A stretch of DNA of 58,222 bases from an uncultured bacterium (lineage in GTDB: Bacteria > Bacillota_I > Bacilli_A > RFN20 > CAG-826). The notes beneath the pieces were generated by a model that made no database searches, was not told the DNA's origin, and saw only the letters and a program-made list of their open reading frames with translations. Location of the stretch: the NCBI GenBank assembly GCA_949290395.1, contig CASERQ010000002.1, forward strand, positions 72,505-130,726. The letters are read 5' to 3'. Shown here piece by piece: positions 3 to 13,501 of this stretch (position 1 is its first letter; every line of letters begins with the position of its first letter). The position numbers and the translations under genes were made by a program.

Positions 3-464
3 AGTGGTGATTGGAATAAAGAACATATCTGGCCTGCCTCAAGACTTCCAAATTATCGAGATGAAACCAAAGAAGGTGCAGATTTATTTAATTTAAGAGC
101 TTCAAATAGTTCAATTAATAGTTCTAGAGGTAATAATTATTATAGTGAACCTGGAGAAGGTGGTTATTACCCAATTGAAGGAAATAAAGCAGGCAATGAT
201 CAAAGAGGTGATGTCGCTAGAGCTATTTTCTATATGGGATTTAAATACGAAAGTATTGGTCTAGAAATTTTAGAAAATCCAAATGAAGATGATAGAAAAG
301 ATGACCAATATTATCAAATGGGTATTCTTTCTACCCTTATTAAATGGAACAAAGCTGATCCGGTTGATGAATTTGAAATGAGAAGAAATTCTAGAATATA
401 CGAATATCAAGGTAATAGAAATCCATTCGTTGACTACCCTGAATTAGTCGAACAATTTTTCTAA
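3..464 (+). CDS. Endonuclease I family nuclease, 3' part (5' end outside window)
   Basis: An open frame runs in from the left edge for 153 codons to TAA. It contains the EndA/NucM-type motif EHIWPASR near its start and a later N-x-x-RGDVARAIFYM block. In Endonuclease I (Pfam Endonuclease_1) the His of H-[IV]-W-P and the Asn/Arg of the second block belong to the metal-dependent active site. Family members are usually secreted nucleases that degrade extracellular or imported DNA or RNA. The N-terminus, signal peptide and any accessory domain lie outside the window. It ends just before a strong terminator and precedes a SipW secretion module. The family call is firm; export and substrate are inferred. 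Confidence 0.85.
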   Translation, partial: SGDWNKEHIWPASRLPNYRDETKEGADLFNLRASNSSINSSRGNNYYSEPGEGGYYPIEGNKAGNDQRGDVARAIFYMGFKYESIGLEILENPNEDDRKDDQYYQMGILSTLIKWNKADPVDEFEMRRNSRIYEYQGNRNPFVDYPELVEQFF

Positions 465-480
465 TTAATTTAATAAAACT

Positions 481-520
481 AAGAACTTATGAACTGGGAT
501 TCATAAGTTCTTTTATTATA
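481..520 (+). terminator. Rho-independent terminator of the endonuclease gene
   Basis: AAGAACTTATGAA (481-493) pairs perfectly with TTCATAAGTTCTT (500-512) around a 6-base loop and is followed by a T-rich stretch. It starts 16 bases after the nuclease stop codon. Confidence 0.9.
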
Positions 521-579: not shown

Positions 580-711
580 CGCTAAAAGGCGCATAATAAA
601 AATATGAGAAAAGAAAAGAGCTTTAATAATTTATATACTCTTCTTGAGAAGTCTATTATTAATTTGCTTTTTGTTTACTAGTAAAATCGCTTTTAAAAAG
701 CGATTTTTTTC
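580..711 (+). other. Candidate structured leader or small RNA upstream of the SipW operon
   Basis: This 300-base gap between the nuclease and the surface protein has no credible ORF. After a possible promoter it can form a long imperfect hairpin: AAAAGAGCTTTAATAAT at about 634-650 faces ATTATTAATTTGCTTTT at about 657-672, around a small CTTC/GAAG helix. The terminator at 683 then follows. I do not recognise an RNA family. It could be an independent small RNA or a terminator-controlled 5' leader of the 763 gene. Confidence 0.3.
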
Positions 712-716: not shown

Positions 717-762
717 TCAACCTTATTAATGTTGTTTTTTATAAGTTTATGGAGGTGTTTCG

Positions 763-3174
763 ATGAAAAACACAAAGAAATTATTAGTAGGCGTATTAAG
801 TGTTTCAGCTTTAATTGGGACAGGTGTAGCTGCTTGGTCTATCGGTGGGGGCGTTGCAAAGTCTACTCAAGAATTAAGCACAGTTACTGAAGAAATTATT
901 GGTAATCGTGATATTACATTAAATGTTACAAAAGATCCAACAGATGGAATTAGATTTGATTCTGATGCTGATTTAAAAGTTACATATAAAGTAAAAGCTG
1001 AAAGAACAGAAGATAACAAAGATGTAAATTTCGATCCATATGATTTGTCAAATTATGAAAATATCGCTAAAGATTATAAACCTAATTTAAAAATATCAAC
1101 AAAAGTTTTTGATGTAGTTAATGGTGAAAAAGTTGAATTAAAAGAAGATGCTGAATTCTTTAAATATGTGGAGTTACCAAAAGTAGAACCTATTGATTAT
1201 ACTGTATGGCTTGGAGAAGAAGCTAAAGCTAATGATGGTTATGAAGTAGAACTCGAATTTACCTGGGGTTCAGAAATAAACCATGAAAACCCACAAATTT
1301 ATGCAGATAAAAATAATGTTGGAAAAACAGAAGAAGAACAAACAGCTTTCTTCCAAAATATAATTTCTATTTTAGACGATGTTTCATTTGAATTTACTTT
1401 TGAAGTAAATGGAAGAGAAGGAGAAGTTAATCCTCCAGAAAAAGAAACAACAGGAGAAATCACTCTTCCTGAAGTCGCAAATTCTTCATTTACAATTGAA
1501 GGATTTGATGAAGCAACTGGAACAGTAGAAGCTGGTGAACATTTAATTACTATTGAAACAGAAGCTGGAAAGATCCTTAAAGATAATAAATTAACAATAA
1601 CTGAAGGTAGTATTGAAAAAACTATTACTCTTGAAGATACAACTGCTTTAAGTAGAGCAGGAGGTCACATATATACTGCAACTTATAATTTCTTAGCTGA
1701 AAGAGTTTATACTTTTGCTTATGAAGTAATTGATGAACCAACCCATGTAGTTGCACATAAAGTTACATTTAGCGTAACTCCTGAAGAAGGCGGAAGTGTT
1801 GAAGTAATAGTTGATGAAAAAGCTATCACAAGTGGTGATGAAGTTGAAGAAGGCAAAACTGCTATAGTAACTATTAAAAATAATGAAGGTTATCATTTAA
1901 GTAGTGTTACTGTTAATAAGGAAGAACAAGAAATTTCAAATAGTACTTTAAACATCAAAGTTGATGGAGCAAAAGATATTGTTGTTACATTTGAAAAAGA
2001 TGAAACACCAGAACCAGAGCCAGTAGTTTTTGAACAAGGTAAACTAAGTTTATGGCAAAATAATACTGGTAAAGCTTTGTATTTTAACGGAAAGATGGAT
2101 TCATATAACCGTTATTTAGATACAACTGAAAATTTTAACGAAGCTGTAGATTTAACTGTTTTTAAAACCAATGAAAATAAATACTTAATTCAAATTGATG
2201 GTACAAATACTTATATTGGAGCTATAAATGTTGATAATAAATATGATAATTACATTATTAGTGAAGAAGCATATCCTTGGGATTATGATGAAACTTATGA
2301 TGTGTATACAACTGATGTTGGCAACGGAAAAGTTTTCATGGCTACTTATCAAACAAATAGTGATATTAGATTAACCGAATATGATACTTGGATTAATGTT
2401 GAAGCAACTTCCAAAGTTCATATTGATTCCAATGAAGTAAAGGCTCCTTTGGCATCGGAAATTTCCGTATCGGCAACTTCTAACTCTATAAAAGTAGGAG
2501 AAACAACCGAGTTATCTATTTCTACATTCCCGGTTGGTTCAACAACAGGTGAAGTAACTTATGAAATTGTTGGGGAAAATAATGGAGTCGTAGAACTTTT
2601 AGATAATGTAATCACAGGCGTTGGAGAAGGTAGTGTTCAAGTTGCTGCAAAAGCTGGTGAATTAGAGAGCAATCCGATCACTATTACTGTTATCTCGGAA
2701 GATACACCTATCCCAGAAACTGTTACATATGAGTATAAGTTCAAAATGAATGGGGAAAATGTCGATAACAATTCTTATAATAATGCGACTGAACTAACGG
2801 AATCTACTGCTTTGGCTAACTTAGAAAGTGGTAATACTGAGTTTGATATTTTTGAATCTGTAGTTTCTATCAGTAAAGTTTATAGTCTTAACGATTATAA
2901 TGGCATGAAATTTGGAAGTTCATCTGTTAAAGGAACCATATCTTTCAAAACAAGCTACAGCATTTCAAAATTACAAGTAAGTTATATTTCATGGAGTAAT
3001 GATAACGCAACACTTACTGTGAATGATGAAAGTGGAGAAATTGTTGAGGAAAATGGAAATGTTAAAACGTATATTTTTAATCTTGCTGAACCAACAAAAG
3101 AAATCACAATAAGTGCAAGTAAGGCTAGCAAATGTAGATTCTTCCTCACCGGCCTCGAATTCTTCCTTGCTTAA
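763..3174 (+). CDS. Large secreted surface protein with SipW-type signal peptide and Ig-like domains
   Basis: 803 residues, start supported by GGAGG at 751. The N-terminus (KKLLVGVLSVSALIGTGVAAW) is a SipW/TasA-type signal peptide, with likely cleavage near A24. Residues about 330-412 look like an InlB-B or bacterial-repeat module (VTPEEGGSVEV). A PEPEP linker follows, then a beta-rich region at about 425-560. A BIG2 Ig-like domain (SVSATSNSIKVGETTELSI) covers about 563-645 and another beta-sandwich-like domain 650-803. There is no LPXTG motif or C-terminal membrane anchor, so it is probably released or matrix-associated. It is followed at once by a second SipW substrate and the peptidase, as in tapA-sipW-tasA of Bacillus. 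Role as biofilm matrix or adhesin is inferred; no enzymatic domain is recognised. Confidence 0.75.
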   Translation: MKNTKKLLVGVLSVSALIGTGVAAWSIGGGVAKSTQELSTVTEEIIGNRDITLNVTKDPTDGIRFDSDADLKVTYKVKAERTEDNKDVNFDPYDLSNYENIAKDYKPNLKISTKVFDVVNGEKVELKEDAEFFKYVELPKVEPIDYTVWLGEEAKANDGYEVELEFTWGSEINHENPQIYADKNNVGKTEEEQTAFFQNIISILDDVSFEFTFEVNGREGEVNPPEKETTGEITLPEVANSSFTIEGFDEATGTVEAGEHLITIETEAGKILKDNKLTITEGSIEKTITLEDTTALSRAGGHIYTATYNFLAERVYTFAYEVIDEPTHVVAHKVTFSVTPEEGGSVEVIVDEKAITSGDEVEEGKTAIVTIKNNEGYHLSSVTVNKEEQEISNSTLNIKVDGAKDIVVTFEKDETPEPEPVVFEQGKLSLWQNNTGKALYFNGKMDSYNRYLDTTENFNEAVDLTVFKTNENKYLIQIDGTNTYIGAINVDNKYDNYIISEEAYPWDYDETYDVYTTDVGNGKVFMATYQTNSDIRLTEYDTWINVEATSKVHIDSNEVKAPLASEISVSATSNSIKVGETTELSISTFPVGSTTGEVTYEIVGENNGVVELLDNVITGVGEGSVQVAAKAGELESNPITITVISEDTPIPETVTYEYKFKMNGENVDNNSYNNATELTESTALANLESGNTEFDIFESVVSISKVYSLNDYNGMKFGSSSVKGTISFKTSYSISKLQVSYISWSNDNATLTVNDESGEIVEENGNVKTYIFNLAEPTKEITISASKASKCRFFLTGLEFFLA

Positions 3175-3183
3175 TTTACAACA

Positions 3184-3372
3184 ATGAAAAAACTCTTATT
3201 AGTATTATTATTAATAGGTGGTTTAGTAGGAACAGGAATGTCTGCTTGGTATTTATCTACCAAGCAGACTTCACATACTGAAACTTTAAAGCCTGATGTA
3301 GGTGACTTCAGAGAAGATATTAAAGTAGAAGAAACTACTGAAACACTAGAAGAAGACTTAGAAAACCTTTAA
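3184..3372 (+). CDS. Small acidic secreted protein with SipW-type signal peptide
   Basis: 62 residues. The N-terminus KKLLLVLLLIGGLVGTGMSAW matches the signal of the upstream surface protein in design (KKLL, hydrophobic core, GTG-x-x-A-W). If cleavage is near A21, the mature peptide is only about 41 residues and strongly acidic (FREDIKVEETTETLEEDLENL). It starts 9 bases after the previous stop, with no clear Shine-Dalgarno sequence, and lies 26 bases before the sipW-like gene, so it is probably translated by coupling. I recognise no family beyond the signal type. It may be an assembly partner (as TapA is for TasA), a cofactor or a signal peptide. Confidence 0.65.
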   Translation: MKKLLLVLLLIGGLVGTGMSAWYLSTKQTSHTETLKPDVGDFREDIKVEETTETLEEDLENL

Positions 3373-3398
3373 AATTTTAAATAAGGCGTAACTTTTTT

Positions 3399-4352
3399 AT
3401 GAATCAAGATATACTTACATTAATTTTATCAATTGTTGCTTTAACAATAGTCTTTGTTGTTATTGTTTTATTAATCTCTATGAGTTTTACAAGTTTTAAA
3501 ACAAAAATAGAGAAATTTGAACTTGATTATAAATATAAAAAAGAATTACCTCATAGAGAGATTAAATTCTATTCAATATCAATTAAACCTGCTTACAATC
3601 AAGGTTTTGTTGAAATAAATAAATATACTCCTTATATAAAAAGTAAAGGTTTAACAAAAGCAAATTCATATAAAGAATACTATTACTATGAAAATGAAGA
3701 AGATGTAAAAAAGAAAATTAAATGGAACATATTTAAAATTATTTTCAGTGTTCTTTTTTACTTAATATGTATTGGTTTAATTGCATTTGGTTTAGTTTAT
3801 AGATTTAATAGCGATTTGTTTACAGTTAACAACGAAACTTATATTACTATTAAAACCGGAAGTATGAGTGAAGCAAATGAAGCTAATGAATATTTAAAAG
3901 AAAACAAATTAACAAATCAAATTCCTACATATAGTTTCATTGGTTTAGAAAAAGTAACAAAAACTTCTGAGTTAAAGTTATATGATATAGCAGCATATAA
4001 GGATCAAACAACAGGCGAACTTATTGTTCATAGAATAATAGATGTAGATATTAGAAATGGGGAAAGGTATTTTACTTTTAGAGGGGATGCTAATTTATAT
4101 AGTGACTATTATTTAGTAAATGAAGATGATGTCTTATATAAATATAATGGCTATATCAATACGCCACTCGGTTATTTCTTTACATTTTTATCAAGTTATC
4201 AGGGAGTAATAGCAATTGCTTATTCAATACTTGCTTTAAATATTCTTGATTATTATGAACACAAAAAACAAAAGTTATTTGTTCAGTATAGAAGTGATGC
4301 AATTAAAAGAATTAATTATAGTGAATATCTGACTTCACTAAATATGAAATGA
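3399..4352 (+). CDS. sipW: SipW-type (Ser-His, ER/archaeal-like) signal peptidase I
   Basis: 317 residues. It has an N-terminal membrane helix at 5-30, a charged region, a second helix at about 111-133, the catalytic domain, and a C-terminal hydrophobic stretch near 270-290. The catalytic Ser is S155 in KTGSM, and the position that is Lys in ordinary bacterial SPases is H211 in ELIVHRI. The FRGDAN block follows. The Ser-His dyad marks the ER/archaeal/SipW class, which cleaves the SipW-type signals of the two genes just upstream. It is longer at the N-terminus than Bacillus SipW (about 190 residues). It ends in TGA, evidence that TGA is a stop here. Confidence 0.88.
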   Translation: MNQDILTLILSIVALTIVFVVIVLLISMSFTSFKTKIEKFELDYKYKKELPHREIKFYSISIKPAYNQGFVEINKYTPYIKSKGLTKANSYKEYYYYENEEDVKKKIKWNIFKIIFSVLFYLICIGLIAFGLVYRFNSDLFTVNNETYITIKTGSMSEANEANEYLKENKLTNQIPTYSFIGLEKVTKTSELKLYDIAAYKDQTTGELIVHRIIDVDIRNGERYFTFRGDANLYSDYYLVNEDDVLYKYNGYINTPLGYFFTFLSSYQGVIAIAYSILALNILDYYEHKKQKLFVQYRSDAIKRINYSEYLTSLNMK

Positions 4353-4454: not shown

Positions 4455-4691
4455 ATGGCAAAAAAATTCTTTGATTTACCAAGATTAGTTCAAATAATCT
4501 TGCTTATCCTTCCTATTGTTGGTTGGATTGTTGAACTCATTATTAGATGGAGTGCTGTACTTGAAAAATTCACAATTTTAAATTTAGTAGCAGCTCTTGT
4601 CTATACTTTCTTAGGTTGGGGTATTGTTCTTCAAATCGTTGATATTATTTGGATTATACTCTTCAAACATTTATTCCTTACAAAAGCATAA
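4455..4691 (+). CDS. Small two-helix membrane protein, unknown function
   Basis: 78 residues with AAGGAG ribosome binding site at 4441. Two hydrophobic helices (about 12-30 and 43-69) contain several Trp residues; the ends are basic (MAKKFF, FKHLFLTKA). It stands as a single gene: a possible extended -10 (TGCGATAAT at 4418) lies upstream and a strong terminator downstream. I recognise no family. The start, codon use and flanking signals make it a credible real gene. Confidence 0.6.
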   Translation: MAKKFFDLPRLVQIILLILPIVGWIVELIIRWSAVLEKFTILNLVAALVYTFLGWGIVLQIVDIIWIILFKHLFLTKA

Positions 4692-4699
4692 TGAAAGTA

Positions 4700-4731
4700 A
4701 AAATTGTCTCCTTGAAGGGGACAATTTTTAA
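4700..4731 (+). terminator. Rho-independent terminator
   Basis: AAAATTGTCTCC (4700-4711) pairs with GGGGACAATTTT (4717-4728), one G-T wobble, 5-base loop, T-run. It ends the small membrane protein transcript. Confidence 0.88.
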
Positions 4732-4895
4732 TAATAAACAACATTTAAAAATTTTCAATAATAGATGTCTTGCGAGTTTTACCAATTTAATCCAATATAT
4801 TTACTTTTCACGATAAATGCTAGAATAAAAGCAGAAGAACTAAACAACATAATTTTCTTTAATTTTTTTTAGTAATCAACGATGAGGAACAGGAA

Positions 4896-5519
4896 ATGAA
4901 AACAATTGGGAACATAATTAAAAAAAGAAGAATAGAAAAAGGTATTAGTTTGGATGATTTTGCTAATACTACAGGTTTTGATACTGAGTTTTTAAAAGAA
5001 ATTGAAAGAGGGTCTTTAATTCCAAATGAAGAATCTTTAAAAATTGTATTAAATGGTTTGGACTTAAACTTTGACTCTTATAAAAACTATATTTCACAAA
5101 ATTATCTAACTAAACTAGAAAAACAGGAAAAAGTTTATAATAGGATGTTGACTTTAAGCGTTGTATCTTTTTTAGTGACTTTTGCTGTCTTGTTTTTCGC
5201 TTATTGGATAACACATAATATAAGAGATATTGGATATATGCTTTACCCTAATAACTCTACCAGAGTAAAGGAAGCTTTTAACATTAATTTCGAATTTATA
5301 TTCTTAGCAACTTTGGTTTTTCCAATTATAAACGCGTATTCTTTTGTAAGATATTCAATCTTTTTCGCTAAAGAAATTAAAGACTTAAAAATATTAATTA
5401 CAGGCTTAATAATGCTTGCTCTTTTAATAGTAGTTATAGTATGTATGTTCGATTTTTATAATAATCGCATTAATAACTATCAATTTATTTTTTATAAAGA
5501 TCCAGAGCGTTTTTATTAA
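4896..5519 (+). CDS. XRE-family helix-turn-helix regulator with membrane-spanning C-terminus
   Basis: 207 residues, ribosome binding site GAGGA at 4883. Residues 1-62 form a Cro/C1-type HTH (IGNIIKKRRIEKGISLDDFANTTGFDTEFLKEIERG). The rest holds about three membrane helices (82-105, 133-153, 166-188). Such membrane-tethered XRE proteins are usually transcription factors that sense envelope state or act with a partner; the target is unknown. A probable extended -10 (TGCTAGAAT) is at 4818. It is convergent with the phosphofructokinase gene. Confidence 0.75.
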   Translation: MKTIGNIIKKRRIEKGISLDDFANTTGFDTEFLKEIERGSLIPNEESLKIVLNGLDLNFDSYKNYISQNYLTKLEKQEKVYNRMLTLSVVSFLVTFAVLFFAYWITHNIRDIGYMLYPNNSTRVKEAFNINFEFIFLATLVFPIINAYSFVRYSIFFAKEIKDLKILITGLIMLALLIVVIVCMFDFYNNRINNYQFIFYKDPERFY

Positions 5520-5536
5520 TAATTAAATTCACTGAT

Positions 5537-6745
5537 TTATAACTTAAAGGCCTTAAAGATTTCTTTATCGCCTTTTTCTTTTACCATTGGAAGTATATAT
5601 TCAAAGAATTTATCACTAATATTATCTAAACTTTCATTAATATAAGCTAAAGGTAAGAATTTAATTTTGTTAGCAACAGATTCTATGTCTTCTAATTTAT
5701 AGTTTACTTTGTAAGGAGTGTTACTAACTCTTTTTATCGTAACGATTTTTTCGTTATTCCCTTTAAGCGCAAATTCAAGAGCTTTTGCTCCACATTTTAT
5801 TGCTTCTTTGGTGTCTATTTTAGAAGGAACAATTGAATTTGCTCTTTGAAGAAGTGAAAGCTCAATATAGCGAGTTTTAATATTAAACTTACTTGTAATT
5901 AAGTTAGCTAAATATACACTTACGCCACCTAGCTGTGTATGTCCAAAAACATCTTCTTCCTCTTTGAGTTTTCCAATGATGTTTCCATTTTTATCATGAA
6001 TCCCCTCAGAGATTACAACAAGACAGTGTCCTTTTTTATCATAAATTTCTTTTGATTTCTTTAAGAAGTTATCTAAATCAAAATCAACTTCAGGAACATA
6101 TATTAAATCAATTTTTGCTCCGTTTAATTCAGCAAGTTTACTAGAAGCTGTGAGCCATCCAGTATTTCTTCCCATAACTTCGACTATATTGATTCTTCCT
6201 TTTTTATAACTAAAGTCATCGTAATATATTTCGCTAACAGAGTTAGCGATAAAATTTGCAGCACTTAAATAACCTGGAGTGTGATCTAGTAAAACTAAAT
6301 CGTTATCGATAGTTTTAGGGATTCCTATTGAATATATGGTGTAGCCAACTTTTTTAGCGTAGCGAGATATTTTTAAGATGGTTTCCATTGAATCGTTTCC
6401 ACCATTATAGAAAAAGTAACGTATATTATATTTTTTAAATAGATTAATGATTTTATCAAATTTCTCTTTATCAGTTATATCATCATTTAATTTATAGCGG
6501 TTGCTTCCAAATATAGCTCCAGGCGTAGTTAATAAAGCTTTTAGATCTTCATCATTATATTTATCGATATCTATGATATCCTCATTTAAAAGACCTTCGA
6601 TTCCATAATGCATAGCATATACTTTTTCGATTATATCTTTATGTTTTCTAGTTTCTTTAAATAGTCCATAAGCAGAAGAGTTAATAACGCTGGTTGGTCC
6701 TCCACTTTGACCATATATTAAGTTCCCTTTAACTAATTTTTCCAT
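5537..6745 (-). CDS. pfp: Pyrophosphate-dependent 6-phosphofructokinase
   Basis: 402 residues, complete. The fold signatures are GQSGGPTSVINSS at 12-24, GGNDS at 115-119 and PKTIDND at 143-149, followed by the GRNTGWLT substrate loop. In ATP-dependent PfkA the equivalent positions read GGDGS and PGTIDND. The Asp in GGNDS and the Lys in PKTIDND are the known markers of PPi-dependent enzymes, so the protein should make fructose-1,6-bisphosphate from fructose-6-phosphate and PPi, reversibly. Other glycolytic genes (gapA, pgk, tpiA) lie 43 kb away. Its promoter appears to place the transcription start on the ATG itself. Confidence 0.88.
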   Translation of the reverse strand: MEKLVKGNLIYGQSGGPTSVINSSAYGLFKETRKHKDIIEKVYAMHYGIEGLLNEDIIDIDKYNDEDLKALLTTPGAIFGSNRYKLNDDITDKEKFDKIINLFKKYNIRYFFYNGGNDSMETILKISRYAKKVGYTIYSIGIPKTIDNDLVLLDHTPGYLSAANFIANSVSEIYYDDFSYKKGRINIVEVMGRNTGWLTASSKLAELNGAKIDLIYVPEVDFDLDNFLKKSKEIYDKKGHCLVVISEGIHDKNGNIIGKLKEEEDVFGHTQLGGVSVYLANLITSKFNIKTRYIELSLLQRANSIVPSKIDTKEAIKCGAKALEFALKGNNEKIVTIKRVSNTPYKVNYKLEDIESVANKIKFLPLAYINESLDNISDKFFEYILPMVKEKGDKEIFKAFKL

Positions 6746-6751
6746 AAGGAA

Positions 6752-6780
6752 ATTTTATCAATTTAAAAGGTCTATTTCAA
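6752..6780 (-). promoter_or_regulatory. Promoter of pfp giving a leaderless mRNA
   Basis: On the minus strand TTGAAA (6780-6775), a 17-base spacer and TAAAAT (6757-6752), followed by only 6 bases before the ATG at 6745. The predicted start of transcription is the A of ATG. No Shine-Dalgarno sequence precedes the gene. Confidence 0.65.
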
Positions 6781-6893
6781 AAATATCTACTAGAAATCTA
6801 CTAATATTTTGAGTTTTAAGAATAGTTAAAATTTGAAATTAATTTCTAAGCTTTTTATTGATAAGATTTAAAAGAAAAAATGAGGAAACATCT

Positions 6894-9413
6894 ATGATAA
6901 AAGTAATTAAAAAACGTGATGGTAGAGAAGAAGAATTTAAACTTGAAAAGATTTCTAAAGCAATAGGAAAAGCTTTTAAATCTATAAACCAAAAAATTAC
7001 TAACGAAGAACTTGAGAAGATAGATGAAAGAGTACTTTCTTTAATTGATACTGAAGCGCCAACTGTTGAAGAAATTCAAGATATTGTTGAAAAAGTTTTA
7101 ATGGAACTTGGATATTTTGATTGTGCTAAAAGCTATATTTTATATAGAAACAATCGAAAAGAGAAAAGAGAAGTGAGAGATGAATTAAACACTCTTGTTA
7201 CATCTCTTGATTTAAGACTTGTCTTAAAAGGTATTGAAAAAGATTTTCCTGAAGAAGAATATGATTTAAAACACCTTTTAAAGAAATTTAAAAACTTCTT
7301 AACTAGTGAAACAAAAGAAAATGACAAGATTAATTTATTAATCAAAGCTGCAGTAGAACTTACTAGTATTAACGCTCCTAAATGGGAATTTATTGCAAGT
7401 AGATTATATATTCATTCATTTAATTCAAAATTAAGAGTAGTTCAAAAAGAATTAAACTTTAATTCTTTATATTCCAAGATTGTTTATCTTGTAGATAACG
7501 ATATATATGGTCACTATTTACTAGAAAACTATACCAAAGAAGAAATAGATGAATGTGAAAAAATGATTGTTAAAGGAAGAGACAAACTCATTAACTATTC
7601 TTCTTTTGAACTTATTTTAAAAAGATACCTTGCAAAAGATCATAGTGGTCTTGTTTTAGAAAGCGTTCAAGAAATGTGGCTTACTATTTCAATGCATTTA
7701 GCAATGAAAGAAGAAAACAAACTTTACTGGGTCAAGAAATTCTATGACGCTTTATCCAAACTTGAATTTACACTTGCTACCCCTACTATGGGGAACGCCC
7801 GTAAACCATTTCATCAATTATCAAGTTGTTTTATAGATACAGTAGATGATTCTTTAGATGGAATCTTTAAATCAATTACTAACTTTGCTCGTGTTTCTAA
7901 ATACGGCGGTGGAATGGGCTTATATTTTGGGAAGGTAAGAGCAAACGGCTCAAGTATAAGAGGTTATAAAGGTGCTGCCGGAGGCATCATACGCTGGATA
8001 AAAATAGTTAATGATACAGCGGTTGCTGTTGATCAACTTGGAGTACGAGCAGGAGCCGTTGCTTGTTATTTAGATGTATGGCATAAAGATTTACCTGAGT
8101 TTTTACAAATCAGAACCAATAATGGTGATGATAGAATGAAAACTCATGATGTTTTCCCAGGCATTTGTTACCCAAATTATTTCTGGCGTCTAGCACGAGA
8201 CAACATCAATTCAATGTGGTATTTAATGGACCCAAAAGAAATATATGATGTTAAAGCTTATCATTTAGAGGATTACTTTGGAGTTGATTGGGAAAATAAA
8301 TATTTTGAATGTATAAATGATGCTCGTATCTCAAAAAGAGAAATTCCAGTTAAAGAAATAATTAGATTAATTATTAAATCAGCTGTTGAAACAGGAACAC
8401 CATTTACATTTAATAGAGATTTAGTAAATGAAACAAATCCTAATAAACATTTAGGTATTATATATTGTTCAAATTTATGCACAGAAATTGCTCAAAATAC
8501 GAGTTCAATAAATGATTTCGAAGTTAGCACAACAAAAACAAAAGAAGGCGATGATGTTGTAATTGAAAGAACTAAAGCAGGCGATTTTGTTGTTTGTAAT
8601 TTAGCATCACTTTGTTTAGGAAATTTCGATGTAGATAATGAGGATAAGCTTGAAGATGTTGTTAATGTTGCAGTAAGAGCATTGGATAACGTAATTGATT
8701 TAAATATGTATCCTTTAGAGTATGCTTCAATTACTTCTAAAAAATATAGAGCAATTGGCTTAGGTGTAAGTGGCTATAATCATCTTTTAGCAAACAAAAA
8801 GATAAGCTGGGAAAGCGAAGATCACCTTAATTACGTTGATAAACTTTTTGAAAATATTAACTACTATGCAATTAAGAGTAGCAATAATCTAGCAAAAGAA
8901 AGAGGAGCATATCAAAACTTCAAAGGTAGCGAATGGGATAACGGAAATTATTTCCGTTCTAGAAATTACAACTCTTTTAGATGGTATGATTTAGAAAAAA
9001 GTGTCCACGAAAATGGTTTAAGAAATGGTTATCTTTTAGCAATTGCTCCTACATCATCAACATCTATAATTGCAGGTACAACAGCGGGAGTAGACCCAAT
9101 CTTAAAACAATTCTTCTACGAAGAGAAAAAAGGAGAAATGATTCCAAGAGTTGCCCCTGAACTTTCTTCTTTAAATGCACGCTACTATAAAGCAGCTCAT
9201 GAAATTGATCAAACTTGGTCTATAAAAGCTGCTGGCATTAGACAAAGACATATCGACCAATCTCAAAGTGTGAATTTATATATAACAAATGATTATTCAA
9301 TGAGACAGATTTTAGAACTTTATATTAAAGCTTGGGAAGTAGGAGTAAAGACGATTTACTACGTTAGAAGTAAAGCTTTGGAAGTTGATGAATGCGAAGG
9401 TTGTGCTAATTAA
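6894..9413 (+). CDS. nrdA: Class I ribonucleoside-diphosphate reductase, alpha subunit
   Basis: 839 residues from the ATG at 6894, which has GAGGA at 6882. An in-frame TTG at 6858 would add 12 residues but lacks support. An ATP-cone (IKVIKKRDGREEEFKLEKISKAI) covers residues 1 to about 90, so activity is probably allosterically controlled by ATP/dATP. Catalytic residues align with E. coli NrdA: C312 (LSSCF), N527/C529/E531 (SNLCTE), Y822-Y823 (TIYYVR), and the C-terminal redox pair C834/C837 (CEGC). It reduces NDPs to dNDPs using the radical of NrdB, encoded 62 bases downstream. Confidence 0.93.
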   Translation: MIKVIKKRDGREEEFKLEKISKAIGKAFKSINQKITNEELEKIDERVLSLIDTEAPTVEEIQDIVEKVLMELGYFDCAKSYILYRNNRKEKREVRDELNTLVTSLDLRLVLKGIEKDFPEEEYDLKHLLKKFKNFLTSETKENDKINLLIKAAVELTSINAPKWEFIASRLYIHSFNSKLRVVQKELNFNSLYSKIVYLVDNDIYGHYLLENYTKEEIDECEKMIVKGRDKLINYSSFELILKRYLAKDHSGLVLESVQEMWLTISMHLAMKEENKLYWVKKFYDALSKLEFTLATPTMGNARKPFHQLSSCFIDTVDDSLDGIFKSITNFARVSKYGGGMGLYFGKVRANGSSIRGYKGAAGGIIRWIKIVNDTAVAVDQLGVRAGAVACYLDVWHKDLPEFLQIRTNNGDDRMKTHDVFPGICYPNYFWRLARDNINSMWYLMDPKEIYDVKAYHLEDYFGVDWENKYFECINDARISKREIPVKEIIRLIIKSAVETGTPFTFNRDLVNETNPNKHLGIIYCSNLCTEIAQNTSSINDFEVSTTKTKEGDDVVIERTKAGDFVVCNLASLCLGNFDVDNEDKLEDVVNVAVRALDNVIDLNMYPLEYASITSKKYRAIGLGVSGYNHLLANKKISWESEDHLNYVDKLFENINYYAIKSSNNLAKERGAYQNFKGSEWDNGNYFRSRNYNSFRWYDLEKSVHENGLRNGYLLAIAPTSSTSIIAGTTAGVDPILKQFFYEEKKGEMIPRVAPELSSLNARYYKAAHEIDQTWSIKAAGIRQRHIDQSQSVNLYITNDYSMRQILELYIKAWEVGVKTIYYVRSKALEVDECEGCAN

Positions 9414-9475
9414 TTACTAAATGAACATATAATTATCAACTAAAAAACTACTAATTATATTAAAAGGAGTTAAAA

Positions 9476-10531
9476 ATGAATATTAATGAACTTTTGGCAA
9501 GAAAACAATTATTTAACCCAAATGGCGATATTGAGATCTCGAAAAGACGTATGATAGGTGGTAACACAACAAACTTAAATGACTTCAATAATATGAAATA
9601 TTCTTGGGTAAGTAATTGGTATCGTCAAGCTATGAATAACTTTTGGATTCCAGAAGAAATAAATATGAATCAAGATGTTAAAGATTATAGAAGTGCTTTA
9701 ACACCTGCTGAAAAAAGAGCTTATGATAAAATCCTTTCATTCTTAATTTTTCTTGATTCATTACAAACAGCAAATCTTCCAAATATTGGTGAATATATAA
9801 CCGCTAACGAAGTTAATATGTGTTTAAATATTCAAAACTTCCAAGAAACAATTCATTCTCAAGCGTATTCTTATATGCTGGATACTATTTGTTCACCAAT
9901 TGAAAGAAATGAAATTTTATATCAATGGAAAAATGATAAACACTTATTAAGAAGAAATGAATTCATTGGAAATGCTTATAATTCTTTTTTAGAAGATAAA
10001 AGAGCATTTAATTTCTTAAAAGTTTTAGTAGCCAATTACATTTTAGAAGGTATTTATTTCTATAGTGGTTTCATGTTCTTTTATAACCTTGCTAGAAACA
10101 ACAAAATGAGTGGCTCTGTACAAAACATCAGATATATTAATCGTGATGAAAATACTCATTTATGGCTATTTAGATCAATTATTTTAGAACTTAGAAAAGA
10201 AGAGCCAGAATTATTTACTCCAGAAAACGAAAAAGTGATGCGAGATATGCTTTTAGAAGGATGCAAGCAAGAGATGGAGTGGGGAATGTATATTATTGGT
10301 AATGACATTCCTGGCTTGAACGAAACTATGGTTAAAGATTATATTAAGTACCTTGGTAATTTAAGAGCTACATCAATAGGATTAGAAAAATTATATCCAG
10401 GCTACGACAACGAACCAGAAAGTATGAGCTGGGTATCAAAATATAGCGATGCAAATATGATTAAAACGGACTTTTTTGAAGCTAGAAACACTGCTTATGC
10501 AAAATCTAGTGTCATAAAAGATGATTTATAA
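9476..10531 (+). CDS. nrdB: Class I ribonucleotide reductase, beta (radical) subunit
   Basis: 351 residues with AAGGAG at 9462. The ferritin-like metal ligands are present: D94, E124 and H127 (in ETIHS), E191 (LEGIYFY), E225 and H228 (RDENTH). The radical Tyr is Y131, with the same spacing to its neighbours as Y122 in E. coli (D84, E115, H118). It forms the tyrosyl-radical cofactor that starts catalysis in NrdA. No nrdI, nrdH or nrdR lies beside it, unlike the usual class Ib operon of Bacilli. Confidence 0.93.
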   Translation: MNINELLARKQLFNPNGDIEISKRRMIGGNTTNLNDFNNMKYSWVSNWYRQAMNNFWIPEEINMNQDVKDYRSALTPAEKRAYDKILSFLIFLDSLQTANLPNIGEYITANEVNMCLNIQNFQETIHSQAYSYMLDTICSPIERNEILYQWKNDKHLLRRNEFIGNAYNSFLEDKRAFNFLKVLVANYILEGIYFYSGFMFFYNLARNNKMSGSVQNIRYINRDENTHLWLFRSIILELRKEEPELFTPENEKVMRDMLLEGCKQEMEWGMYIIGNDIPGLNETMVKDYIKYLGNLRATSIGLEKLYPGYDNEPESMSWVSKYSDANMIKTDFFEARNTAYAKSSVIKDDL

Positions 10532-10556
10532 TACCTGCAAAAGTGAAAAATAGGTA

Positions 10557-10585
10557 TTGTCAAAACCAAAAAAATGTTTTATAAA
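10557..10585 (+). promoter_or_regulatory. Strong sigma-A promoter of an orphan RNA
   Basis: TTGTCA (10557-10562), exactly 17 bases, TATAAA (10580-10585), starting 26 bases after the nrdB stop. Transcription should begin near 10592. The only thing downstream before a terminator is a 150-base non-coding stretch. Confidence 0.65.
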
Positions 10586-10591
10586 TTAAGT

Positions 10592-10740
10592 ACATAGAGA
10601 TATAAATATCTCGTCTAAAAGAAACAGCGAACCTGATAATTAAAGCTGTTAATCAAGAGAATAGGATTCAGTGCCTATTAACGTCATCAATGTTTGGATG
10701 ATAGAAAAAAAGAATCGTGTAAAGAAACGATTCTTTTTTT
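10592..10740 (+). ncRNA. Unidentified small RNA of about 150 nt
   Basis: The stretch lies between a consensus promoter and a terminator and has no credible ORF. It can fold as a row of five hairpins: GAGATAT/ATATCTC (10597-10612 region), AACAGC/GCTGTT (about 10623-10650), AATAGG/CCTATT (about 10660-10679), TCATC/GATGA (about 10684-10702) and the terminator stem. Loops of the second and third hairpins can make a short CUGA-UCAG contact. It does not match RNase P, SRP, 6S, tmRNA, T-box or common riboswitch cores that I can recall. It resembles a stand-alone small RNA; a 3'-UTR-derived RNA of nrdB is the alternative. Confidence 0.5.
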
Positions 10741-10741
10741 A
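10704..10741. terminator. Bidirectional terminator between nrdB/small RNA and udk
   Basis: AGAATCGT (10711-10718) pairs with ACGATTCT (10727-10734). It has a T7 run on the plus strand and an A-run at 10704-10710 that gives a T-run on the minus strand. The udk stop codon overlaps its edge. Confidence 0.85.
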
Positions 10742-11359
10742 GAGTCTATCTTTAATCATGAAGTCTAAGACAGAACAGATGACATCAATTGATTTATTAT
10801 CATATCCATCATTATTAACGATTAAATCTGCGTAATATTGAGACGGGCCAATTATTTCTTCATACATTGGTTGGACAGTGGAAAAGTACTGACTTACAAT
10901 TGATTGTTCATCACGTCCTCTTTCAATCTTGTCTCTATCCATTCTTCTTAAAAGTCTTCTCTCACGGCTTGCATTAATAAATATTTTAAGATCGCCTAAT
11001 TCACGTATATCTTTGTTAACAAGAGCCATGATTCCTTCGACAATGATTAATTTATTAGGTTTAACTTTAACAATTTTTTCAGCTCTTGTATGAAGAACAT
11101 AATCATAAGTTGGTTTTTCAATCTCTTGATTGTTTTTAAGTTTTGAAAGTTGTTCTCTCATGAGTTTCCAGTCAAATGCTTTAGGGTGATCAAAATTTTG
11201 TTTCTTTCTTTCCTCTAGAGGAAGATTTGATAAGTCTTTATAGTAGTCATCAATGGAGAAGTGAGTAACGTTTTCACTTCCCAATTTCTTGATAACTTGA
11301 TCAATAACGTATGTTTTCCCACTTGCGGAACCGCCGCCTACTAAAACTATTTTTGCCAT
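10739..11359 (-). CDS. udk: Uridine kinase
   Basis: 206 residues. P-loop GGGSASGKT at 8-16, the nucleoside-binding segment SIDDYYKDL, FDHPKAFDW and the YDYVLHTR lid region are all typical of Udk. It phosphorylates uridine and cytidine to UMP and CMP in pyrimidine salvage, in the cytoplasm. Length matches the family. An AAGGG sequence lies 10 bases before the ATG and a TACAAT -10 element ends 17 bases before it. It is a single-gene transcript that shares a bidirectional terminator with the nrdB side. Confidence 0.92.
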   Translation of the reverse strand: MAKIVLVGGGSASGKTYVIDQVIKKLGSENVTHFSIDDYYKDLSNLPLEERKKQNFDHPKAFDWKLMREQLSKLKNNQEIEKPTYDYVLHTRAEKIVKVKPNKLIIVEGIMALVNKDIRELGDLKIFINASRERRLLRRMDRDKIERGRDEQSIVSQYFSTVQPMYEEIIGPSQYYADLIVNNDGYDNKSIDVICSVLDFMIKDRL

Positions 11360-11417
11360 AATAATGTGCCCTTAAAATTGTATCACGAACCATATTAATT
11401 TTGTATTTATTTGGGAA

Positions 11418-11474
11418 AATTACTAAAAATTGCTGAATTATACATAATTTAAATATTTTAGTAATTATTTAGTA
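11418..11474. repeat. Inverted and direct TTTAGTA repeats upstream of the DegV gene
   Basis: AATTACTAAAA (11418-11428) is perfectly inverted as TTTTAGTAATT (11456-11466). A further TTTAGTA (11468-11474) sits 11 bases, one helical turn, from the copy at 11457. This is the main feature of the 250-base divergent gap between udk and the DegV gene. It may be an operator, or chance in AT-rich DNA. Confidence 0.35.
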
Positions 11475-11610
11475 TATTTTAAGTAAATAAATTGTATATA
11501 ACTAGTAGGTAAACAATTCTTTTATTAAAAAAGTAATGTTTTATTATCAAAATTGATATAAACTTAATGAGACATATCTATTTTCTTAATTAAGTATATG
11601 GAGTTATTTT

Positions 11611-12441
11611 ATGAAATTTGAAATTTGTGTTGATAGTAGTTCAAACTTATTAAGTAATCATATTGTTGATGATGAAGTAGGCTTTGATGTAGTTCCTTTA
11701 ACGATAAGGGTAGGAAATGAAGAATTTGTTGATGACGACAACTTAAATGTTCCTGAGTTCCTTAAAAAGATTGAAAGTACTAGTGAAGTTTGTAAATCAG
11801 CTTGCCCATCCCCACAAGATTTCCTTAACAATTACGAAAAAGCTGATTATACAATCTGTGTTACTATCAGTAATAAGTTAAGCGGATCTTATAACAGCGC
11901 ACTTGTTGCTAGAGATATGAGCGACAAAAAAGAAAATATCCTTGTTGTTGATAGTCTTTTAACAGCCGGTGCTATGAGATTAATTGTTGATAAAGCTTAT
12001 TCTTTAATAAAAGAAGGAAAAGATTTTGAAACTATTAAAAAAGAAATCTTAGAATATCGTGATTCAATTAAGCTTTTATTTGTTTTAGATAAGTTTGATA
12101 ACTTAGTTAAAAATGGCAGAATGAGTAAAGTTGTTGCTTTTATTGCCCAACTTGCTGCAATTAAACCACTTTGTTATGGCGACGAAGGCGAAATTAAAAT
12201 CAAAGAAAAAATCAGAACTTTTAAGGGCGTCTTAAAAAGGTTAGTTCATAATATTGGAGTAATGTGTCCAGTAACAAAAGGAAGAACTTGTGTTATTTCA
12301 CATACTCAAAACGAAGAAAGTGCTTTACTCTTAAAGGCACTAATTGAAGAAGCATATCAATTTGATTCTATTATTGTTGAAGACAATAGAGGATTATGTT
12401 CTTTTTATGCTTTAAGAGGCGGCTTAATTGTTAGTTTTTAA
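11611..12441 (+). CDS. DegV family fatty-acid-binding protein (FakB-like)
   Basis: 276 residues. It has the DegV pattern: N-terminal ICVDSSSNL, TSEVCKSACPSPQDFLNNYE, the ligand-site segment ISNKLSGSYNSALVARDM, and the C-terminal domain. DegV/FakB proteins bind a fatty acid and present it to the FakA kinase for phospholipid synthesis. No fakA lies beside it here. GGAG at 11600 supports the start; a weak promoter is TTGATA-N16-TATCTA (11553-11580). An unusual TTTAGTA repeat cluster lies upstream. The family is sure; the ligand is inferred. Confidence 0.85.
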   Translation: MKFEICVDSSSNLLSNHIVDDEVGFDVVPLTIRVGNEEFVDDDNLNVPEFLKKIESTSEVCKSACPSPQDFLNNYEKADYTICVTISNKLSGSYNSALVARDMSDKKENILVVDSLLTAGAMRLIVDKAYSLIKEGKDFETIKKEILEYRDSIKLLFVLDKFDNLVKNGRMSKVVAFIAQLAAIKPLCYGDEGEIKIKEKIRTFKGVLKRLVHNIGVMCPVTKGRTCVISHTQNEESALLLKALIEEAYQFDSIIVEDNRGLCSFYALRGGLIVSF

Positions 12442-12463
12442 TCTTAAAAAATCCTATTAATTT

Positions 12464-12472
12464 TGCTATAGT
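12464..12472 (+). promoter_or_regulatory. Extended -10 promoter placed for a leaderless GTG start
   Basis: TGCTATAGT fits an extended -10 (TGn-TATAAT). It ends 7 bases before the GTG at 12480, so transcription is predicted to begin at the start codon. The -35 region (TTAAAA) is weak, as is usual for extended -10 promoters. Confidence 0.45.
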
Positions 12473-12479
12473 TAAGAGC

Positions 12480-12830
12480 GTGAAGAAAAGAGTAACTAGA
12501 ACGCAAAAATATCAAGATTACAGAGAAGAAATTAAAAATTCTTCTTTTTCTTTAGATGTTCAAGAAAAGAGTAATGAAGTTAGATCAATTAAACAAACTA
12601 TAAAAGAAAAAACTGCTAACTTAACTACAAAAACGCAACCTCAACAAAGTAAACATTTTCTTGATAAAAAAGAAGAAAAAGAACTTGAAAAGACAGTTTA
12701 TGATATTTATCAATCTAAAAGAAGATGGAGAAGATTTTTCTATTCACTTTTTGTCTTGATTTTTATTAGCGCAATCATTATGCTTTTTTTATTTTTGGGT
12801 AACAAGTATTTGGAGTTTAACTTATGGTAA
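12480..12830 (+). CDS. Single-pass membrane protein of unknown function, upstream of cmk
   Basis: 116 residues with a GTG start. The body is highly charged (Lys/Glu-rich, probably partly helical); one membrane helix (about 86-108) is preceded by the basic cluster SKRRWRR, which favours a cytoplasmic N-terminus. It overlaps cmk by 7 bases and is likely co-transcribed with cmk-der-gpsA. No family is recognised. The apparent absence of a ribosome binding site, with a -10 box 7 bases upstream, suggests leaderless translation. Confidence 0.6.
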   Translation: MKKRVTRTQKYQDYREEIKNSSFSLDVQEKSNEVRSIKQTIKEKTANLTTKTQPQQSKHFLDKKEEKELEKTVYDIYQSKRRWRRFFYSLFVLIFISAIIMLFLFLGNKYLEFNLW

Positions 12831-13501
12831 AGAATTTCTCAATCGCAATAGATGGTCCTAGTGCAAGTGGCAAAAGTACCGTTGCTAAGTTAATAGCAAA
12901 AAAATTAAATTTTACTTATATTGATACAGGAGCAATGTATCGTGCTTTTACATTAGGTGTAATCGAAGCTGGTTTAGATCCTAAAAGTGAAGAGGAAAGT
13001 AATTCTTTAATAGGTAAAATTTCAATTTCTTTTGATGAAGAAAATCATATTACATTAAATGGAAAAGATGTTTCTCAAAGAGTTAGAGAAAATGATGTAG
13101 CAAATAACGTTAGTTATATTGCAAGTTATAAAGGAATTAGACTTCATCTTGTTGATCTTCAAAGAAAAATTGCTAAGAACAAATCTGTTGTAATGGATGG
13201 AAGAGATATTGGAACTTATGTTTTAGAAGATGCAGATTTAAAAATTTATCAAGTTGCAACTGCTGAAGAAAGAGCTAAAAGAAGATATAAAGAAAACTTA
13301 GAAAAAGGAATTGAAACAAGTTTTGAAGCTTGTTTAGATAATATTAATAAACGCGATTACATTGATTCTCATCGTTCTTTCTGCCCATTACATCCTGCAA
13401 ATGATAGCGTTGAAATTAACACAACTGATATGACAATTGAAGAAGTCGTAGACGCAATTATTGAAATTGCTAAACAAAGAGGTTTAACAAATGGCAAATA
13501 A
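12824..13501 (+). CDS. cmk: Cytidylate kinase
   Basis: 225 residues. P-loop DGPSASGKS at 10-18, YIDTGAMYRAFT for the nucleotide monophosphate site, VVMDGRDIGTYV and the late KRDYIDSHRS motif identify CMP/dCMP kinase. It makes CDP and dCDP for nucleic acid and phospholipid synthesis. It overlaps the preceding membrane protein and der (11 bases). The order cmk-der-gpsA-hup is a conserved Bacillota block. Confidence 0.95.
   Translation: MVKNFSIAIDGPSASGKSTVAKLIAKKLNFTYIDTGAMYRAFTLGVIEAGLDPKSEEESNSLIGKISISFDEENHITLNGKDVSQRVRENDVANNVSYIASYKGIRLHLVDLQRKIAKNKSVVMDGRDIGTYVLEDADLKIYQVATAEERAKRRYKENLEKGIETSFEACLDNINKRDYIDSHRSFCPLHPANDSVEINTTDMTIEEVVDAIIEIAKQRGLTNGK

Follow-up and report, generated by a model that had tools for sequence, protein, structure and literature searches.

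We analysed a 58,222-nucleotide (nt) stretch of DNA (hereafter referred to as the window; contig CASERQ010000002.1 of assembly GCA_949290395.1, forward-strand positions 72,505 to 130,726) from an uncultured bacterium (GTDB lineage Bacteria; Bacillota_I; Bacilli_A; RFN20; CAG-826), whose genome (G000; 1.37 Mb in 21 contigs) contains four SipW-like peptidase genes. Close to the start of the window lie three consecutive genes, encoding a giant secreted protein of 803 amino acids (aa), a small protein of 62 aa and a SipW-like signal peptidase. All three open reading frames (ORFs) were recovered where an initial annotation of the sequence had placed them, and the signal design that it had recognised, KK followed by a hydrophobic core and GTGxxAW, is present in both the giant and the small ORF. 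The features of this module are as follows.

751-757, plus strand: strong ribosome-binding site, GGAGGTG, ahead of the giant (sequence).
763..3174, plus strand: giant secreted protein, 803 aa, a putative multidomain adhesin with a SipW-type signal (ORF, domain searches, fold searches).
763..831, plus strand: SipW-type signal of the giant, residues 1-23 (sequence, alignment; cleavage site inferred).
832..897, plus strand: free mature N-terminal tail of the giant, proposed donor strand (predicted local distance difference test, pLDDT, 43-46 over the first 20 residues).
913..1431, plus strand: N-terminal domain (N-domain) of the giant, kept in nine species (alignment, profile, model).
2440..2703, plus strand: Big_2 immunoglobulin (Ig)-like domain of the giant (Z 10-12; Pfam Big_2 E 0.0022).
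2716..3171, plus strand: C-terminal jelly-roll of the giant, resembling carbohydrate-binding modules (Z 8-9).
3184..3372, plus strand: small SipW substrate, 62 aa, signal plus tail (ORF, alignment, profile searches).
3240..3269, plus strand: RNA hairpin within the small gene, 12-base-pair (bp) stem and 6-nt loop (terminator scan, folding, comparison).
3268..3288, plus strand: codons 29-35 of the small protein, a strand in a read-through fusion model (model).
3399..4352, plus strand: SipW-like Ser-His signal peptidase, 317 aa (S155 at 3861-3863, H211 at 4029-4031).

The module was located in other genomes by using the peptidase, and also a profile of the N-domain of the giant, as queries. The three-gene order, which the initial annotation had proposed to look for in relatives, recurs as giant, small protein and peptidase in nine species of the genus; in G020 the module is divided over two contig ends in a way that is compatible with this order. 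The small protein has 62 aa in the window, 70, 56, 51, 50, 61, 60 and 47 aa in seven other species, and 172 aa in G007. Among 43 SipW loci, SipW-type proteins shorter than 150 aa occur only in this module group, always directly before sipW. Loss or interruption of the 62-residue ORF among relatives had been named beforehand as grounds for abandoning the proposal, and in eight other species the same slot is occupied by an open frame with the same signal. The ratio of nonsynonymous to synonymous substitution rates (dN/dS) of the small gene is about 0.4-0.5 for most species pairs and 0.86 for the closest pair. We are highly confident that the small gene encodes a real, conserved SipW substrate. 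The module of G019 (L042:4927-9726) has its giant divided into two ORFs (623 and 150 aa), a small gene devoid of the hairpin, and a second N-domain protein, of 334 aa, which comes after sipW.

The peptidase sequence carries the S26B hallmark, a serine nucleophile in a GSM box and a histidine general base replacing lysine. Its previous designation as a Ser-His peptidase with S155 and H211 appears to be right: both residues are invariant in an alignment of ten relatives, along with G154, M156 and D230. The protein misses the curated NCBIfam cut-offs (TIGR02228, 50.8 versus 51.85 bits; NF046067, 45.8 versus 190) and is, by this sequence-based measure, a relative of Bacillus SipW and not its equivalog; two other peptidases of the same genome pass the TIGR02228 cut-off. 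Among 279 genomes of the order, the module peptidases form a group of 11 that score 287-440 bits, compared with at most 201 bits for the rest, a gap of 86 bits. Two members of this group, in G261 and G113, lie outside the genus. At L052, L053, L054, L127 and L133, the SipW-like peptidases have long extensions that bring them to 628-1013 aa in total.

The small protein is composed of a signal peptide, MKKLLLxLL..GxGxSAW, and a tail with a PxIG(D)F-like motif; if it is cut before AW, as its sequence suggests, the mature part would comprise about 42 residues. Strong acidity, which the initial annotation had noted for the mature peptide, is not a general property, since the tails contain from 3 to 13 D/E across species, and those of G006, G017, G019 and G020 are poor in acidic residues. 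A profile of the N-domain of the giant recovers the small protein from its own genome (E 4.3e-5, positions 4-44) and from G015 (6.3e-5), and a profile-profile comparison aligns the two proteins over signal and tail (probability 96.8). The tails of the small protein and the giant are also alike within individual species: HVSG and HISG in G015 and G009, YIINGFY and FVINGTY in G007, and SKDGTIDYEIG and SNDGEIPFEIATIG in G006. The agreement is closer for pairs from one species than for pairs from different species (permutation p 0.0012; past residue 8, p 0.017; signal core as control, p 0.16), in a test that covers nine related species with few independent events. The 172-aa slot protein of G007 (L040:6697-7215) matches the giant only in its first 37-39 residues.

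Two genomes outside the genus fill the slot differently. G261, from another genus, has in this position a 195-aa protein with a whole N-domain, accompanied by a giant of 608 aa, and in G113 a 199-aa protein, located at a contig start, precedes sipW. Because the slot is filled by a full-length domain in the other genus, the simplest view of the small protein is that of a minor subunit trimmed to its front end, one that looks comparable to TapA. In Bacillus subtilis, TasA subunits are joined by N-terminal donor strands, and TapA is thought to give the first strand (PMC10151520, PMC9674648); the N terminus of TapA resembles the TasA donor strand (PMC9674648, PMC10151520), and its residues 44-57, 14 residues after the signal, suffice for biofilm formation (PMC10151520). 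The corresponding trait is present here, in that the N-terminal segment of the small protein resembles the tail of the main subunit. Unlike TapA, the small protein (62 aa, signal and tail only) has no folded V-set Ig domain. Its description as far smaller than TapA is thus correct as to length and the lack of a folded domain, but the contrast is weaker than it had seemed, as the functional minimum of TapA is itself the signal plus residues 44-57 (PMC10151520). Our literature search found no paper that combines SipW and a microprotein.

The small gene is not preceded by a Shine-Dalgarno sequence in the nine species and starts 2-49 nt past the stop codon of the giant, so that it is probably translated by reinitiation. 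It also contains a 12-bp inverted repeat, at 3240-3269 (codons 19-29), which was flagged by a terminator scan and had been missed in the initial annotation. The hairpin has a folding energy of -22 kcal/mol in 60 nt, compared with a mean of -8.4 for synonymous recodings. In eight of the nine genus members, the strongest hairpin of the region before sipW lies at about the same codons; the z-scores against synonymous recoding range from -3.4 to -6.5, and these hairpins are seven of the eight strongest among 117 SipW-type genes. Four species keep the same stem, with both arms changed beside the loop and at the base, and the motif occurs at one place per genome. In the remaining species the sequence of the hairpin differs and a stem is still found at the same place; in the 172-aa slot gene of G007 (L040) it is at codons 16-30.

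Shuffles for the four-species stem gave a modest result (35 of 500 reached the observed score), because most pairs are invariant. Between G015 and G009, none of 12 third positions has changed in the hairpin arms, compared with 17 of 48 elsewhere (p 0.013), and the innermost pair has undergone a compensating change from A-U to G-C by way of I-to-V and L-to-A replacements. This is a case of RNA pairing dictating the amino acids of a secreted protein, and the hairpin is very probably under selection. No Rfam match was found at this position. A role as terminator was rejected, as no U-tract follows the hairpin in any species. We likewise rejected a programmed frameshift into the sipW frame: reading on in the -1 frame runs into a TGA at 3279-3281, and among relatives the distance to sipW varies modulo 3.

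We scanned 421 genes (455 kb) for in-gene hairpins, using synonymous-codon shuffles as the control. Nineteen of the 20 strongest were in genes of SipW operons, namely small genes, other SipW substrates and sipW itself; these include L146, which was classed as other by the pattern used, yet has a SipW-type start. Hairpins of -20 kcal/mol or stronger numbered 19 in sipW and substrate genes versus 1.6 expected, and 4 in other genes versus 1.8 expected; as orthologues are not independent of one another, these counts overstate the number of events. Within sipW the excess peaks at nt 60-260, and the hairpin often lies early in the gene that follows the leading substrate gene or genes, with exceptions. 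In G003 and G021, sipW contains a stem of 18 bp at about nt 625-667, with two compensating double changes that alter amino acids. It is possible, although on balance rather doubtful, that the in-gene hairpins of SipW operons in this taxonomic order act on the mRNA to determine how much subunit is made per peptidase, and that they place constraints on their host proteins; in one group the host gene would have been cut down to that of a strand-donor micro-subunit, with part of its mature N terminus specified by the hairpin.

Strong in-gene hairpins were seen in the SipW operons at L045 (sipW at 6257-7174, minus strand), L046, L047 (10005-10832, plus strand), L049 and L050, the last two in sipW at about nt 625-667 of the coding sequence, and also at L053, L054, L130, L132, L137 and L152. 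The L046 operon (7422-13267), from the same genome as the window, has several consecutive SipW-type substrates ahead of one sipW.

The giant itself was examined by structure prediction. In a larger model, mature residues 537-624 form a Big_2 domain, and residues 629-781 form a jelly-roll like those of carbohydrate-binding modules. As modelled, the giant fits a carbohydrate-binding surface adhesin or matrix protein, which agrees with the matrix or adhesin role suggested in the initial annotation. Of its broader idea of an undescribed matrix, adhesin or signalling unit, the dedicated SipW module with a giant adhesin and a micro-subunit is supported, its order being kept in nine species, and a signalling peptide is not supported. 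We also considered the C-terminal domain of the giant as a general secretion tag and rejected this, as the domain occurs once in the genome. The predicted monomer has a confident N-domain fold from about mature residue 28 and leaves the first 22 mature residues free, the tail being disordered. In the window and four relatives, the giant and the small gene share one frame across the stop codon between them, so that a read-through translation can be folded as one chain. In this fusion model, residues 29-35 of the small protein form a strand (pLDDT about 75) and the giant's own tail remains disordered. The modelled strand is only a hint, and its partner is not visible.

The TapA-like anatomy, with the minor subunit reduced to its functional part, leads us to propose, tentatively and at somewhat less than even confidence, that the small protein serves a SipW-dependent adhesin as a minimal strand-donor subunit, its amount being kept low by reinitiation together with the in-gene RNA hairpin. 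The giant would be exported with its SipW-type signal and cleaved by the neighbouring Ser-His peptidase, and its freed N-terminal tail would likely enter another beta-sandwich as a donor strand, the acceptor probably being the N-domain of the following giant. The small protein, cut to signal and tail, would provide a donor strand, the first or the last one, and in this way start, cap or chaperone the assembly of the carbohydrate-binding giant; for strand donation as a single step of the proposal, we see the chances as evenly balanced. It would be needed in far lower amount than the giant. Its low output would follow from termination-reinitiation at the stop of the giant in the absence of a ribosome-binding site, and the hairpin would probably protect the mRNA end of the giant and lower expression of the later genes. 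Such control of stoichiometry by hairpin and reinitiation we infer with neither more nor less assurance than strand donation.

Several known systems bear comparison with this proposal. Like tapA-sipW-tasA of B. subtilis, the module combines two substrates having SipW-type signals with a dedicated Ser-His signal peptidase, and the N-terminal tail of the minor secreted component resembles that of the main one. Unlike TasA and TapA, the components have no detectable domain sequence relation to those proteins, the main component is a multidomain adhesin of 600-1040 aa, and the minor one lacks a folded domain and is encoded by a gene that bears an RNA hairpin. The sipW-calY operon of Bacillus cereus with its chaperone-like third part, CapP (PMC13082335), and the sipW-bsaA operon of Clostridium perfringens, which gives transcripts of different length (PMC7395162), likewise join sipW to fibre subunits; they differ in gene sizes and order, and the available excerpts of these two reports describe no in-gene hairpin. 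In the cip-cel cellulosome operon, a case of selective RNA processing and stabilisation, strong stem-loops just past the genes needed in excess set the subunit ratios (PMC4423207). Here, too, a strong stem-loop lies shortly past a gene that is likely needed in excess, an excess that we assume; the stem-loops described for cip-cel are intergenic, whereas this one is inside the next gene.

A number of observations weigh against our proposal. The N-domain has no sequence match in Pfam, NCBIfam or the Protein Data Bank, TasA, TapA and camelysin included. A structure search with it placed the TasA fibre (8aur) weakly, at rank 4 with E 0.25, and its best fold matches, with Z 5, were to unrelated Ig-like folds, none of them significant, although a missing fold match does not in itself count as evidence. 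The fusion model comes from an artificial read-through, with a predicted template modelling score (pTM) of 0.32 and no interface score. The tail residues TKQ of four species are dictated by the hairpin pairing, and therefore cannot be counted as protein conservation; the within-species tail match draws on few independent events. Finally, G019 keeps the small gene without the hairpin.

The strongest rival, which we regard as unlikely, puts the RNA first: the small ORF would mainly be there to carry a hairpin for mRNA processing or stability, by which the giant:sipW ratio is fixed, and the peptide would have little or no function outside the cell. The selection on the hairpin that overrides amino acids, the in-gene hairpins of sipW and other substrate genes, and the stem-loops that set subunit ratios in cip-cel (PMC4423207) all argue for it. 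However, the signal peptide and the PxIG(D)F-like motif, both outside the hairpin, stay in frame in nine species, G019 retains the ORF even where the hairpin is missing, and a pure RNA element has no need of a signal peptide.

Secretion monitors of the SecM/MifM type are short secreted ORFs ahead of an export gene, and here, too, a short secreted ORF, with an mRNA hairpin in it, directly precedes such a gene, so that its export or cleavage might control the translation of sipW. We consider this improbable. Unlike in SecM and MifM, neither an arrest motif conserved at the C terminus nor a masked ribosome-binding site was found in the module, and the C termini differ freely; the hairpin ends 129 nt ahead of the sipW start and leaves it uncovered, and the same type of hairpin is also present in genes that do not precede sipW.

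A secreted micropeptide with a signalling or antimicrobial role and no relation to the giant would be short, exported and variable in its C-terminal part, as the small protein is, but the homology and within-species match to the tail of the giant, together with the whole domain in the slot of G261 and the 172-aa protein in that of G007, make this very unlikely. We find it just as hard to believe that the inverted repeat works as DNA, as an operator or recombination site, despite its near-perfect dyad and a motif unique in each genome: the stem is kept among species while its sequence differs completely, the repeat is well within coding sequence, and other SipW operons have similar stems of unrelated sequence. 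The least probable reading, that of a functionless, decaying remnant of a minor subunit, accords with the variable length and the longer 195-aa form of G261 but not with a frame open in nine species, a conserved signal, dN/dS values mostly of 0.4-0.5 and a selected hairpin.

The neighbourhood of the module includes the following elements.

3..464, plus strand: end of an endonuclease I gene, a neighbour outside the module (domain search, neighbourhood).
481..512, plus strand: terminator-like hairpin behind endonuclease I (terminator scan).
683..707, plus strand: second terminator-like hairpin, ahead of the giant (terminator scan).

Positions 3-464 encode the final part of this endonuclease I, a lipoprotein-like protein of 901 aa, and the two terminator-like hairpins separate it from the giant. 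The link to extracellular DNA that had been drawn from this gene is not borne out, as endonuclease I is near the module in only four of nine genomes and forms a separate unit. Upstream of the window start, L044:1262-10464 contains a lipoprotein-like secreted cluster with an OB-fold protein, two 5'-nucleotidases and endonuclease I, which looks like a nucleic-acid scavenging unit; window positions 3-464 form the end of this cluster. After the module, at window positions 4455-5519, come genes for a hydrophobic membrane protein of 78 aa and for a helix-turn-helix protein in which three membrane segments are predicted.

The in-gene hairpins suggest a way of setting subunit ratios within SipW operons for which we found no earlier description. 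Among the strand-donating helpers of TasA-type surface fibres, the small protein may be the smallest form known. If the strand-donor proposal is true, it would be a natural counterpart of the experimentally trimmed TapA, the starter of an adhesin or fibre system consisting of an export signal and a strand, and what donor-strand assembly minimally requires in Gram-positive-type bacteria would become directly testable.

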